DNA of 39,321 bases, from the IMG/VR virus record IMGVR_UViG_3300017989_000216, positions 1 through 39,321 of that record. The stretch is one strand, 5' to 3'. Shown piece by piece: positions 4,066-39,321 of the stretch; the first letter of the stretch is position 1, and the number at the start of each line of letters is the position of its first letter. Both the position numbers and the translations under genes were made by a program. The notes under the pieces were generated by a model. That model did no database searches and was not told the origin of the DNA. It saw only the letters and a program-made list of their open reading frames with translations. The stretch comes from a virus.

Positions 4066-4094
4066 ACGATATCATTACTTATTACTTATGTCAA
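4066..4094 (-). promoter_or_regulatory. Leftward sigma70-type promoter B (shared family)
   Basis: The minus strand shows TTGACA, a 17-base spacer, then TATCGT. From TTGTTGACAT through both AAGTAAT heptamers it is identical to promoter A. It drives 3552-3917 and probably the genes beyond it. It sits between divergent leftward and rightward operons. Confidence 0.7.
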
Positions 4095-4181
4095 CAAACT
4101 TTCCTAAACCTTCGCTTTTTTAGTTTTTCAGGTGTTACGGTTATATCGACAAATCTATTCATTTTTAAAAAGGAGTGAGTG

Positions 4182-14812: not shown

Positions 14813-15565
14813 TTACTTTCCTTCTCGGATTCCTACGAACTGTCGTACTTGTCTCATGACGCTGTTGTATTTGGATTGAGGAAGGTCTGCTAGAGTCTGG
14901 ATATTGAATCGTTTCATGAGGTCTTCAGCGATGTCTTCGTATCCTTTGATGTCTTCTATGAGGTCTTTGAGTTGTTGTTCTGTGATTGGTTCGAAGGATT
15001 GTTTTCTGGCGCTGTAGTCTGCGTGAGGAGCTACTCCTTTGATTCGTTCTTGTCTTACTGTTTCCATATCTAATTCGCCGTCGTCGTCGTCTATATCTTC
15101 CATGATGGTGATATTGAGTAGTGACATTATGTCGTGACGTTTCATGGCTTTAAGGTTAGATGCGTAAGCCTGCACGTCATTCTTTGATGGTATGATACGG
15201 GATCGAGTTTGTATGAACTGGTCTGATTCGTGTCTTAGTGTTGTTACTAGTATGGTTTTATCGTCGTCTATTTTTGTTTGTTGAGTTATAGATAATCCAT
15301 TAACAGACAGGGCAGGTCGTACGGCTCTCAATATACCGTCTAAGTCTGTGTATTGGTTGAATAGGAATCTATTGTTTCTGTTGGTATTTATTGTAGGATA
15401 ATCGCCCTGAGCCTTAGCGAGTGCGGCGTTTATTTGGTCTGTTTTGTCTGACTCGTAAGGATCAGGACGATATTGTTTGAGTTGTTCTTTAGCTTCTTTT
15501 TGGATGTATAGTTTGAGTTCATCCAAATACTTTAGTTGTTGAGAAAAGTTCTCAATATTCTCCAT
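14813..15565 (-). CDS. Erf-family single-strand annealing protein, divergent copy (250 aa)
   Basis: Residues about 40-160 match the Erf recombinase pattern: INAALAKAQGDYPTI, then FNQYTDLDGILRAVRPALSV with NGLSI, ILVTTLRHESDQFI and a D/E-rich turn (EDIDDDDGE). Erf proteins anneal single-stranded DNA in phage recombination and genome circularisation. The helix that normally reads GsaiTYarRYal.sllgi is changed here to ASNLKAMKRHDIMSLLNI, a clear divergence. The C-terminal 80 residues form a helical tail ending in a basic patch and could recruit single-strand-binding or other proteins. AAGGAG lies before the ATG. Last gene of the leftward operon that also encodes a second Erf-type protein (17377-17910). 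Confidence 0.8.
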   Translation of the reverse strand: MENIENFSQQLKYLDELKLYIQKEAKEQLKQYRPDPYESDKTDQINAALAKAQGDYPTINTNRNNRFLFNQYTDLDGILRAVRPALSVNGLSITQQTKIDDDKTILVTTLRHESDQFIQTRSRIIPSKNDVQAYASNLKAMKRHDIMSLLNITIMEDIDDDDGELDMETVRQERIKGVAPHADYSARKQSFEPITEQQLKDLIEDIKGYEDIAEDLMKRFNIQTLADLPQSKYNSVMRQVRQFVGIREGK

Positions 15566-17117: not shown

Positions 17118-17387
17118 TTATTTTTTGCCGTTTCTGATGGCTTCTCCAAATTTTGTTGCTAATTTTTCAATACAGTTCCAACACATCTCATCTATGAAAA
17201 CTTGGATTAATATTTCTGGTTCTAAGCAACCTTCAACGAATTTTCTTAGGGCCTGTGTTACCATTTCTTCGTTGGTGATTGTTTCTCCATCAATTAATCG
17301 TTGTGCCATTTCTGGTCCGAGTTCTTCTATTAGGATTTTGTTGAGTTGTTCTCTTTTTTCTTTTGGTATTTTTCTATTAAGAGCCAT
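17118..17387 (-). CDS. Small helical protein, unknown (89 aa)
   Basis: No family is recognised. Charged helical segments (KEKREQLNKILIEELGPEMA) are followed by a hydrophobic amphipathic region with a CWNC motif (FIDEMCWNCIEKLA). No signal peptide. The start overlaps the second Erf gene by 11 bases. The CxxC could bind metal or be redox-active, but only one such pair exists. Part of the leftward operon, so likely early and linked to recombination or takeover. Confidence 0.6.
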   Translation of the reverse strand: MALNRKIPKEKREQLNKILIEELGPEMAQRLIDGETITNEEMVTQALRKFVEGCLEPEILIQVFIDEMCWNCIEKLATKFGEAIRNGKK

Positions 17388-17910
17388 ATCGTTGTCCTTG
17401 GGTGTATGGGCTGTTTCCGTCGTTATCTTCGTCTGCGTCTATGCCGAGCATAGATTTGAGGGCGTGTCGTTTTGTGTAGGTTAGTGCTCCGCCCATGGCT
17501 TGGAGGTTTTCGTATGTTTTAACTAGTTTGTTGATCATGGTGTATTGTTCTGGGATTGCGGTTATAGATCGGAACCATTGTCCTGAGGTGTGGGTGATTA
17601 TGGTTATGACGTAAGTTTTGTCGCCGATTGTGTGTACTGGTTGTAGTAGTGATAGTCCGTGTTTTGCTAGGACGGGGTTGATATCTGAAAGTAGTCCTGG
17701 TAGAGATTGGTATTTGTATCGTCCGCCGGCGGCTTTATCTGTTTTGAGGTTTGGGGCATCTTTTTTGAATTCGCTGAGAGCCTTACTAATGTCCTTGGTG
17801 TCTGACGAAGATATGTTGTAGAACATCTCTCTCTTTGCGACGATTTTGGCGTATTTTTGAAGTTCTGAGAGTTCGGCTAGTCTTTGTCTCATTTGGTTAT
17901 TTTCGTCCAT
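17377..17910 (-). CDS. erf: Erf-family single-strand annealing protein, canonical copy (177 aa)
   Basis: Residues about 40-165 fit the Erf family closely: ISKALSEFKKDAPNL, YKYQSLPGLLSDINPVLAKH with GLSLL, YVITIITHTSGQW and the hallmark GGALTYTKRHALKSMLGI ending in DADEDND. It lacks the long C-terminal tail of the other Erf gene (14813-15565); otherwise the two align over the core. The protein anneals complementary single strands in phage recombination. The upstream tiny membrane-protein gene overlaps it by 14 bases. Having a canonical and a divergent Erf in one operon is unusual. Confidence 0.85.
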   Translation of the reverse strand: MDENNQMRQRLAELSELQKYAKIVAKREMFYNISSSDTKDISKALSEFKKDAPNLKTDKAAGGRYKYQSLPGLLSDINPVLAKHGLSLLQPVHTIGDKTYVITIITHTSGQWFRSITAIPEQYTMINKLVKTYENLQAMGGALTYTKRHALKSMLGIDADEDNDGNSPYTQGQRYGS

Positions 17911-18470: not shown

Positions 18471-18511
18471 GTCCCTATCCCTTCATTTTTAGCCAATTAT
18501 TAACTATTTAT

Positions 18512-18540
18512 AGTGTATCATCAGCTACATATGTAGTCAA
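18512..18540 (-). promoter_or_regulatory. Leftward promoter of the recombination operon with palindromic operator
   Basis: The minus strand shows TTGACT (18540-18535), a 17-base spacer, then TACACT (18517-18512), about 40 bases before the first ATG at 18470. The perfect 12-base palindrome CTACATATGTAG (18525-18536) lies in the spacer and touches the -35 box, an obvious place for a repressor. Confidence 0.65.
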
Positions 18541-18546
18541 GAGTAT

Positions 18547-18592
18547 AAAAAAAAGGGTGGTTTTTGGTTGAAAAGTGGGTTTTGACCACTCC
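18547..18592 (-). terminator. Candidate leftward terminator or attenuator before the recombination operon
   Basis: On the minus strand GTGGT (18589-18585) can pair with ACCAC (18561-18557), extended through one mismatch, followed by CC and eight T (18554-18547). The loop is long (23 bases), so the structure is modest. It would end RNA started at 18781-18809, before the promoter at 18512-18540. Confidence 0.45.
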
Positions 18593-18610
18593 AGGGTTCA
18601 GGTCTATCAC
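18582..18610 (+). promoter_or_regulatory. Candidate rightward promoter of the rep-like gene
   Basis: TTGACC (18582-18587), a 17-base spacer and TATCAC (18605-18610). The RNA would start near 18617 and have a leader of about 165 bases before the rep ATG. Confidence 0.5.
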
Positions 18611-18666
18611 ATACAAGGAGTGGTTTAGGCCCACCAGGAGGCGTCTTGTGTATCTCAGCCCTCCTG

Positions 18667-18760
18667 CTAGAAATTAAAAGATCCGGAGAAACATTGACGC
18701 CTCTCCGGAAATCTTTTAATTTTCTAGTACCCCTCATAAAGAGATCAATCAACCGAGGGG
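18667..18760 (+). other. Structured leader of the rep-like gene
   Basis: A long imperfect stem pairs 18667-18689 (CTAGAAATTAAAAGATCCGG...) with 18702-18727, about 22 base pairs with small bulges and a 12-base loop. A second stem pairs CCCCTC (18730-18735) with GAGGGG (18755-18760). Upstream, GAGGCGTC near 18638 can pair with GACGCCTC (18696-18703), competing with the loop/right arm of the large stem. This accounts for most of the 311-base gene-free stretch 18471-18781; no protein gene is supported there. Confidence 0.65.
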
Positions 18761-18780
18761 CATATAACATATGAGGTCTA

Positions 18781-18809
18781 AATGTATCCTTACTTATTCC
18801 CGATGTCAA
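18781..18809 (-). promoter_or_regulatory. Leftward sigma70-type promoter C (shared family), inside the rep start
   Basis: The minus strand shows TTGACA, a 17-base spacer, then TACATT. It shares TTGTTGACAT and AATAAGTAA with promoters A and B but only one clear AAGTAA heptamer. It overlaps the first codons of the rightward rep-like gene and points back across its leader, so its RNA would be antisense to that leader. Confidence 0.7.
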
Positions 18810-20044
18810 CAAAAGAAAACAGAAAAAACCCCATCAATACGGGGAAAAGTACTGTTTGTAATAGAAAGAATGACCCTGAGTTCTGGAAAGATCCTCGCCC
18901 TGTTGAGGATTTCTGCTTTAAGCCAGCTTTTTTCGTTAAGACCGTTCTGTCACCACTCGACCGCAAGGTCCTAAATTATATCTTACATTTTAAGCAAGTC
19001 TTCAAACAGCTCTACACTGCTCAATCAACCATTGCCCGTCACCTCGGGGCATCACGAGAGGAGGTGAACCGAAGTATTTCGCGCCTGAGAACATGGGGGC
19101 TCATCAAAACAAATTACCGACACTTTCAAACCAGTGTCTACAAGGTGAGCTCTCTGTTCTCCCTAAAACGTGTCAAACGACAACTCGCTAAACTCCTAAC
19201 AGCCCTCAGGAACAATTCTTACCACTACCTCACACAATTAAATTTTTTTACTAGAGAATATTTATATAAAAAAGCATGTCATGTCATGTACAGGTACTTG
19301 ACTTACATTAGAAAGAGAGAGACCCAAGATTTAATCCAAAATTTGTTCAAAACTTCCAAAATTCCAAAAACTCTCCCAAAATTCCCACCACCAGTCTGTC
19401 CAAGCAAAACAGGACCTGTCCCTGGCTACATCACAAAAAGGAGAGTAATGACGCCAGAAGAAGTAAAAGAGAGAGCCGATGCAGTAGAAGAAGCTAGCAA
19501 AGTGCTCATGCTATCTCTTTATGGGAAAGCTAGACTTACTATCTACCCTGCGATAGCTATACGCGAAGCCTTGAAGAGTTTCAAATCAAACCTAAAACGA
19601 GGTAAAAAAATAACCAAACCCTACGGCTTCGTATGTAACCGAGCTAATGACGCTACCAAAATCCTTAACCTAGAACCCGACTATCACATCTTCGATCAGT
19701 ACAAACTTAAACACGACTTCCAGTACGACGAAGAACCACATATTCCAGGTTTCTACACACATTACAAACGACTACAAGAAGACATCAAAGCAAAACAAAA
19801 AGAAAAACCATTGCCAGCAGCATACAAACCGTATCAAACTAAAGAAGACAACATAGACTACTACCAGGAAGTATTAAAGTTTGAACGCACCGAAAAACTC
19901 CCAGACTTCGAACACAGGTGCAACCTCTTTCAAGGCAAAAAAGCATTCTACGCCTGCAAAAACAACATGATTCGTAAAGCTCTCGAACACGCCTCCGAAG
20001 AGGAAAAACAAGAGCTAAAGGAGAGATATGGAGAAACCATCTAA
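18782..20044 (+). CDS. Replication initiator-like protein with winged helix domain (420 aa)
   Basis: GAGG five bases before ATG 18782 supports this start over the in-frame ATG at 18803. Residues about 55-122 fit a winged helix of the kind at the N-terminus of phage/plasmid replication initiators (VLSPLDRKVLNYI, TAQSTIARHLGASREEVNRS, LRTWGLIKTNYRHFQTSVYK). The middle is basic and helical. The C-terminal half has a GFVCNRAND segment and a Lys/Glu/Tyr-rich region, not matched to a known catalytic domain. Codon and base use is A/C-rich compared with the A/G-rich rightward genes that follow, a possible sign of separate origin. Best reading: origin-binding initiator; a transcription regulator is the alternative. 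Confidence 0.6.
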   Translation: MYPYLFPMSTKENRKNPINTGKSTVCNRKNDPEFWKDPRPVEDFCFKPAFFVKTVLSPLDRKVLNYILHFKQVFKQLYTAQSTIARHLGASREEVNRSISRLRTWGLIKTNYRHFQTSVYKVSSLFSLKRVKRQLAKLLTALRNNSYHYLTQLNFFTREYLYKKACHVMYRYLTYIRKRETQDLIQNLFKTSKIPKTLPKFPPPVCPSKTGPVPGYITKRRVMTPEEVKERADAVEEASKVLMLSLYGKARLTIYPAIAIREALKSFKSNLKRGKKITKPYGFVCNRANDATKILNLEPDYHIFDQYKLKHDFQYDEEPHIPGFYTHYKRLQEDIKAKQKEKPLPAAYKPYQTKEDNIDYYQEVLKFERTEKLPDFEHRCNLFQGKKAFYACKNNMIRKALEHASEEEKQELKERYGETI

Positions 20045-38546: not shown

Positions 38547-39321
38547 ATGGCAGTATATTTTGCGCCGGCTGGTCATGGATCTAGGTCGGCATCACTGGGA
38601 GCCTCATTAGGACAAGGCCTAGGCCAAACACTCCAGATGCTGGCTCAAAATAAGATGTTAGCTAAACAGCAGGAAATACAACAACAAATGGCTCAAGACG
38701 CAAAGCGTCAGAAGGCATTTGATATAGGGGAAGGCCTAGCTGCCCTAGGTGTCCCGGCAGAAGTTGGTCAAAAAATAGGATTGCTTCCAGAGAAGCAGCA
38801 AGAAATGTTTCTTCAGCAGTTTTTTGGATCACAAGCATCTATGCCTCAAGCTCAACAGGGCCTAGTGGAAATGCTTGGAGCGTCTCCAGAAGGCTTAGGA
38901 GAACAACCTGGAGCAGGTCAAATGCTTGAAGGACTAGCTCCAGAAGCTATGCAACCAGAAGGAGTTCCTCAAGAAGGAGCACCTGGACCGCAAATGCAAC
39001 CAGAATCTGATCAAATAAGACAACAGGTACAGGACCAGGTGAATAAACTATCTCCTGCAGATAAAAGTATCTTAAAGAGAGAAATAGAGCGTCTTAGAAG
39101 CGGTGTTCCTATAGGAGCAAGCAAGGAGGCTGAACCTGGTTATAGATTGCAGACCAAGCCAACAAGACAAAAGACATTCCAAGAGCTACTCGCAACTCCT
39201 CGACCATCAAAAGAGGATAAAGCTAAGGCTCGTAAGATGGCTATGGAGGAAGAGAAACTCAGCTTGGCGAAACAGAAAGAGATCAACCAAGATACACGTA
39301 AGTATTTTGAAGAAACGATGA
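38547..39321 (+). CDS. Virion internal protein, 5' part (continues at position 1 after closure)
   Basis: Starts at ATG 38547 (AAGGAG eight bases before) and is open to the end of the window. It begins AVYFAPAGHGSRSASLGASL with a Gln/Met/Gly/Pro-rich region (about 30-170) and a Lys/Glu-rich helix (about 225-255). Its frame joins exactly to 8-571 when the 11-base overlap is removed, giving 444 residues. Direct joining without removing the overlap would make a stop. Composition like the preceding gene suggests an ejected internal protein. Confidence 0.75.
   Translation, partial: MAVYFAPAGHGSRSASLGASLGQGLGQTLQMLAQNKMLAKQQEIQQQMAQDAKRQKAFDIGEGLAALGVPAEVGQKIGLLPEKQQEMFLQQFFGSQASMPQAQQGLVEMLGASPEGLGEQPGAGQMLEGLAPEAMQPEGVPQEGAPGPQMQPESDQIRQQVQDQVNKLSPADKSILKREIERLRSGVPIGASKEAEPGYRLQTKPTRQKTFQELLATPRPSKEDKAKARKMAMEEEKLSLAKQKEINQDTRKYFEETM

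Follow-up and report, generated by a model that had tools for sequence, protein, structure and literature searches.

The window analysed here is the whole of an IMG/VR virus record (IMGVR_UViG_3300017989_000216; 39,321 bases). Its first and last 11 bases are identical (1–11 and 39311–39321), an uninterrupted 444-codon frame runs through the junction when the ends are joined, and two relatives have end repeats of 52 and 114 bases at differing gene positions. Because of these observations, the record is most simply read as a complete, circularly mapping genome of ~39,310 bp; such a map is equally expected from headful packaging and from a circular molecule. The window encodes a P22-type portal, a capsid protein, a terminase, two Erf annealing proteins, an Arc-like RHH protein and a winged-helix replication initiator. 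The two Erf-type proteins (14813–15565 and 17377–17910) are different from each other, are encoded in one leftward operon and are both kept in close relatives. The initiator gene, rep (18782–20044, plus strand), codes for a 420-aa replication-initiation-like protein with an N-terminal winged helix (phrog_8102, 2.1e-5; HTH_Crp_2, 3e-6), for which a search of phage records detected no close DNA or protein relatives. The features described below lie between rep and the divergently oriented leftward Erf/RHH operon.

With an E. coli sigma70 matrix, which may not suit the phage's host, a leftward promoter in the first rep codons (promoter C, or P_as; 18781–18809, minus strand; TTGACA-17-TACATT) ranks 4th among 78,570 genome positions, and it is the only 10/12 match in a 2.5-kb scan. 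Its predicted start site, ~18774, is located at the rep ribosome site, in agreement with the initial annotation, in which the leftward RNA starts there. The rightward promoter of that annotation (18582–18610, plus strand; TTGACC-17-TATCAC), with a leader of ~165 nt, was likewise recovered as a promoter-like site (score 9.2, one per 3,416 positions). A second candidate rep promoter, at 18692–18722 (plus strand; TTGACG-17-TAATTT; score 7.9, one per 970), would give a leader of ~53 nt; its TTGAC..CTCTCCGG sequence is similar to that of the strong rep promoter in the compact relatives described below. The leftward Erf/RHH operon has a strong predicted promoter of its own, P_L (18512–18540, minus strand; TTGACT-17-TACACT with TG, one per 26,190). 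Thus, promoter C is not needed for the operon and is free to serve as a separate unit. Another leftward promoter, upstream of the 3917 gene (4070–4098; TTGACA-17-TATCGT), shares 86% with promoter C over 29 bases, spacer included, and a common regulator might bind both.

The structured leader suggested earlier was borne out: the 221 bases at 18570–18790 fold at -78 kcal/mol (z -5.8), and none of 200 shuffles was as good. Four back-to-back hairpins precede rep, and on both strands the folding greatly exceeds that of shuffles (z about -5.8 and -5.7). The first, H1 (18575–18634; GTGGGTTTTGACCACTCC / GGAGTGGTTTAGGCCCAC), holds the -35 of the rightward promoter at 18582–18610, and H2 (18635–18666; CAGGAGG/CCTCCTG) has an AGGAGG Shine-Dalgarno-like site in its 5' arm. 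The long hairpin H3 (18667–18727) has a GC core (CCGGAGA/TCTCCGG) with flanking A and T tracts, and contains the TTGACG of the second candidate rep promoter. H4 (18731–18760; CCCCTC/GAGGGG) lies just before the rep ribosome site.

The leftward RNA had initially been proposed to be ~225 bases long and to end at a T8 tract near 18547. The tract exists (18554–18547); however, no GC hairpin abuts it, as H1 stops 20 nt short, and terminator scans favour the ends of H3 or H1. Termination at T8 was therefore rejected, and the RNA is probably ~100 nt long. H3 is predicted to be the leftward terminator, and may also be an attenuator for the rightward RNA. An end at H3, which is the most likely one in the window on the basis of promoter and terminator scans and folding, would give an antisense RNA of ~100 nt (18674–18774, minus strand) with two stem-loops, H4 and the terminator H3. 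Possibly, transcription instead reads through H3 and stops after H1, where the scan found a terminator-like site, although its hairpin has a loop of 24 nt, to give ~208 nt (18567–18774, minus strand). Relatives have a hairpin homologous to H3 with compensatory changes. The RNA of the window may be a discrete, terminated one: the terminator-like hairpin is predicted and covaries, and the window's own U tract is only moderate.

A perfect pairing between H2 and H3 (GAGGCGTC/GACGCCTC, 18638–18645 with 18696–18703) was given no weight, as ~0.2 such matches are expected by chance in a region of this size. Inside H2, AGGAGG and six further bases precede the GTG of a 9-codon ORF that ends at the foot of H3 (18636–18677; ORF 18648–18677; p ~0.03 in shuffles), and relative L022 has a 6-codon ORF (MYPRES) inside its own last large hairpin; both are possible leader peptides. 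Leader-peptide control is not claimed here because such Shine-Dalgarno-preceded mini-ORFs were not enriched in the 43 leaders of the comparison that follows (8 vs 5.4 expected). A leftward 91-aa ORF over the leader (18537–18812), whose TTG start is upstream of the predicted transcription start, was set aside, having no counterpart in the eight related genomes compared. Rfam, with RNAI, CopA and ctRNAs included, yielded no match at the gathering score for the window and eight relatives, and nothing meaningful at E <= 5.

About 100 related contigs were collected through terminase and portal searches. An HMM was made from the nearest initiators and then run iteratively against the ORFs of these contigs, where it detected 68 initiator fragments. 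From these we kept the 43 distinct genes that had sufficient upstream sequence; their proteins form 41 clusters at 50% identity. The same layout, with a backward promoter at rep, was observed in about half to two thirds of these 43 phages. A leftward promoter scoring at least 10 was found near the rep start in 47% of them and near 4.2% of 709 other gene starts (p 3e-17). When a downstream leftward terminator-like site was also required, the numbers were 17 of 43 rep genes and 1 of 437 other gene starts (p 9e-19), and in 24 of 29 loci the nearest terminator did not fall within any leftward ORF. Compared with dinucleotide shuffles of the same stretch, the antisense strand reached p <= 0.05 in 22 of the 43 (41 clusters) vs 4 of 43 for the sense strand; about half of the 43 thus have no significant antisense promoter in this test. 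A mirror control on the first leftward gene was at background (median 6.3 vs 9.8). Synonymous recoding with the protein fixed gave modest support (median p 0.11; p <= 0.05 in 7 of 43). Since this result is weaker, N-terminal residues or AT content may account for some of the signal; we base the claim of recurrence on the strand bias together with the joint promoter-terminator statistic.

Two layouts were found among the relatives. In six compact relatives (L007, L008, L011, L013, L015 and L111), the predicted antisense RNA is ~70–80 nt long and ends at a CCCGGAGAGTGTCAAACCTTTCCGGG-type hairpin; the best leftward promoter is at the same place, with a -35 of TTGAC, in all six and in L022. An RNAalifold alignment of eight such sequences, including the window, predicted 14 pairs in the terminator stem, 10 of them with changes on both sides; for H1, H2 and H4, covariation was covered by only one or two sequences. 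In most compact relatives the terminator hairpin holds a TTGACA or TTGACT, which is the -35 of a rightward promoter that is the contig's best or close to it. This rep promoter has 17 nt from -35 to -10, and the -10 lies 12–36 nt before the start codon; the rep mRNA would be nearly leaderless in L007, L013 and L015. The two predicted RNAs overlap by only about 15–25 nt, and antisense transcription would sweep the whole rep promoter. The window, L022 and many distant relatives instead have 150–250 nt before rep, and the predicted antisense RNA covers a long leader. From its sequence, this long-leader layout appears closer to the plasmid picture than the compact one. L008 (4320–4560) appears to carry two tandem copies of the rep control unit (hairpin, promoter and first rep codons). 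The upstream one runs out as an ORF of 45 codons, and the stem of the second hairpin differs but still pairs.

The DNA anatomy, its recurrence, the associated statistics and the compensatory changes in the terminator stem were obtained directly from sequence. Because the unit recurs at the rep starts of relatives and its terminator stem shows compensatory changes, we consider it rather probable that this is a dedicated cis-antisense control unit of the initiator gene, whose short RNA lowers Rep synthesis. The strong sigma70-type promoter in the first rep codons would produce a short leftward RNA (~100 nt in the window, ~70–80 nt in the nearest relatives) that stops at an intrinsic terminator hairpin upstream of rep and is antisense to the 5' part of the rep mRNA as far as the ribosome site. 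Antisense transcription would cross the rep leader and, in compact relatives, also the rep promoter. Rep synthesis would most likely be lowered by RNA pairing near the ribosome site together with head-on promoter interference, and the supply of initiator would thereby be tied to template number or time of infection. We infer that the RNA is produced, where exactly its ends lie and that rep is repressed. In six relatives the antisense unit crosses the rep promoter within the terminator hairpin, and therefore promoter interference may be no less important than RNA pairing. A more specific proposal, which we advance tentatively and regard as somewhat doubtful, is that a large group of uncultivated tailed phages uses a single hairpin both to terminate the antisense RNA and to hold the rep -35, and that replication timing or copy number is thereby governed by a combined interference-plus-antisense switch. 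With such a hairpin, antisense transcription would always sweep the rep promoter and stop exactly behind it.

Antisense control of initiator genes is textbook knowledge for plasmids and, to our knowledge, is documented for few phages. In R1 (CopA/CopT) and in IncB/IncI plasmids (RNAI), a short stem-loop RNA with its own promoter and terminator is antisense to the leader just upstream of rep. The predicted RNA of the window follows the same plan, including an opposite-strand promoter at the rep start; however, it matches no Rfam family, its phages have no detected ParA, and its action in trans and in copy control is putative. Antisense control of rep, as the initial annotation proposed it, is well supported by the recurrence of the promoter-terminator unit and by its covarying terminator stem; the length then given for the RNA is probably too great. 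The lytic replicon of P1 sits in a C1-controlled operon. Antisense RNA control of this replicon (repL) is indicated by the title of Heinrich et al. 1995, as cited in PMC9948254, and to that extent it resembles our proposal as control of a phage initiator gene by antisense RNA; however, no family match found here relates the window Rep to that of P1. Extrachromosomal mycobacteriophages also use non-coding RNA in replication, with RNA-based origins, but there the RNA replaces a Rep protein and adjoins parABS (PMC7157519), whereas the window has rep, and no parA was detected in it.

The closest competing explanation is offered by phage lambda, where pO, near the O start codon, directs a short leftward RNA and lowers pR transcription, and the RNA itself has little effect on replication (PMC3985674). 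By this precedent, promoter activity rather than the RNA may be the point: leftward transcription would interfere with rightward transcription into rep and the origin, and the small RNA would be a by-product. The geometry matches, as a short, terminated leftward RNA is predicted from a promoter close to the initiator start, and in compact relatives the RNAs overlap by little while the antisense unit spans the rep promoter. However, the window and many distant relatives have a much longer leader under the predicted antisense RNA, and we regard pO-like interference by itself as possible but unlikely. In addition, the known RNA target of OOP is cII, upstream, whereas upstream of rep there is a leftward operon and no rightward gene; the rep leader is therefore the sole candidate for a cis target.

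It is also conceivable, with a low probability, that the rep-internal promoter serves the leftward Erf/RHH operon as an additional promoter, the hairpins being simply the operon's leader or attenuator. In the close relatives L007 and L015, the leftward gene starts 80–85 nt from rep and no other leftward promoter was seen before it, and in these two the rep-start promoter may feed the operon as well. However, the window, L022, L008, L011, L013 and L111 have another leftward promoter (score 8.4–12.7) nearer the operon, and a terminator before it. That the hairpin array is a DNA element, such as a replication origin or a protein-binding site, with transcription incidental, is improbable: the initiator gene adjoins the four tight inverted repeats and the Arc-like RHH protein encoded next door could bind there, but the intergenic leader of the window has no iterons or iteron-like direct repeats, and the strand-biased promoter enrichment would be left unexplained.

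The initial annotation had argued from the antisense layout and the lack of an integrase for a phage-plasmid lifestyle. No tyrosine integrase (PF00589) or serine resolvase (PF00239) was detected in the window, and no tyrosine integrase (PF00589) in 25 related contigs, as expected for phage-plasmids; this absence is as compatible with a strictly lytic group as with an extrachromosomal one. However, the window also has no ParA-type ATPase (PF13614), the maintenance gene expected of a phage-plasmid, the P1 lytic replicon is itself reportedly under antisense control, and the circular map is equally that of headful packaging. The phage-plasmid reading was not adopted because positive evidence for it is lacking, and antisense control of this kind cannot alone count as evidence for a plasmid prophage. 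Of 234 genomes searched, all from the phylum to which a Simkaniaceae assembly belongs, 21 gave a terminase match, and five of these matches were almost full length (42–50% identity). One lies on a phage-like contig of 40.7 kb, where several structural genes of the window have matches too; two others are apparently isolated pieces, on 125- and 860-kb contigs. Within this one phylum, the only one searched, the matches are hints of Chlamydiota hosts for relatives. No plasmid prophage of the window's clade was identified among the terminase-bearing Chlamydiota genomes. Chlamydiota assemblies L154, L157–L160 and L166–L174 have terminases 42–50% identical to that of the window.

Antisense control of initiators is already known, and the present arrangement is a variation on it, not wholly new. 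Judged from sequence comparison, the rep antisense unit is a real feature and a good functional hypothesis with broad comparative support. Its recurrence over initiators that are mostly less than 50% identical suggests a standard way of metering replication in this phage group, and its defined promoters and hairpins are available for mutation. Some relatives also contain repeats at rep. Short tandem repeats, which could be iterons, are located directly before the rep start codon in L032, L061, L067 and L081 (ACAAACATGAGGTTCAT in L081; a 39-base unit in L032). Within the AT-rich middle of rep itself, L007 (6796–6847) and L111 (2797–2847) have direct repeats of the GTAGTAAGTTAA type that lie 36 bases apart, and it is possible that in these two phages the origin lies inside rep, as in lambda O.
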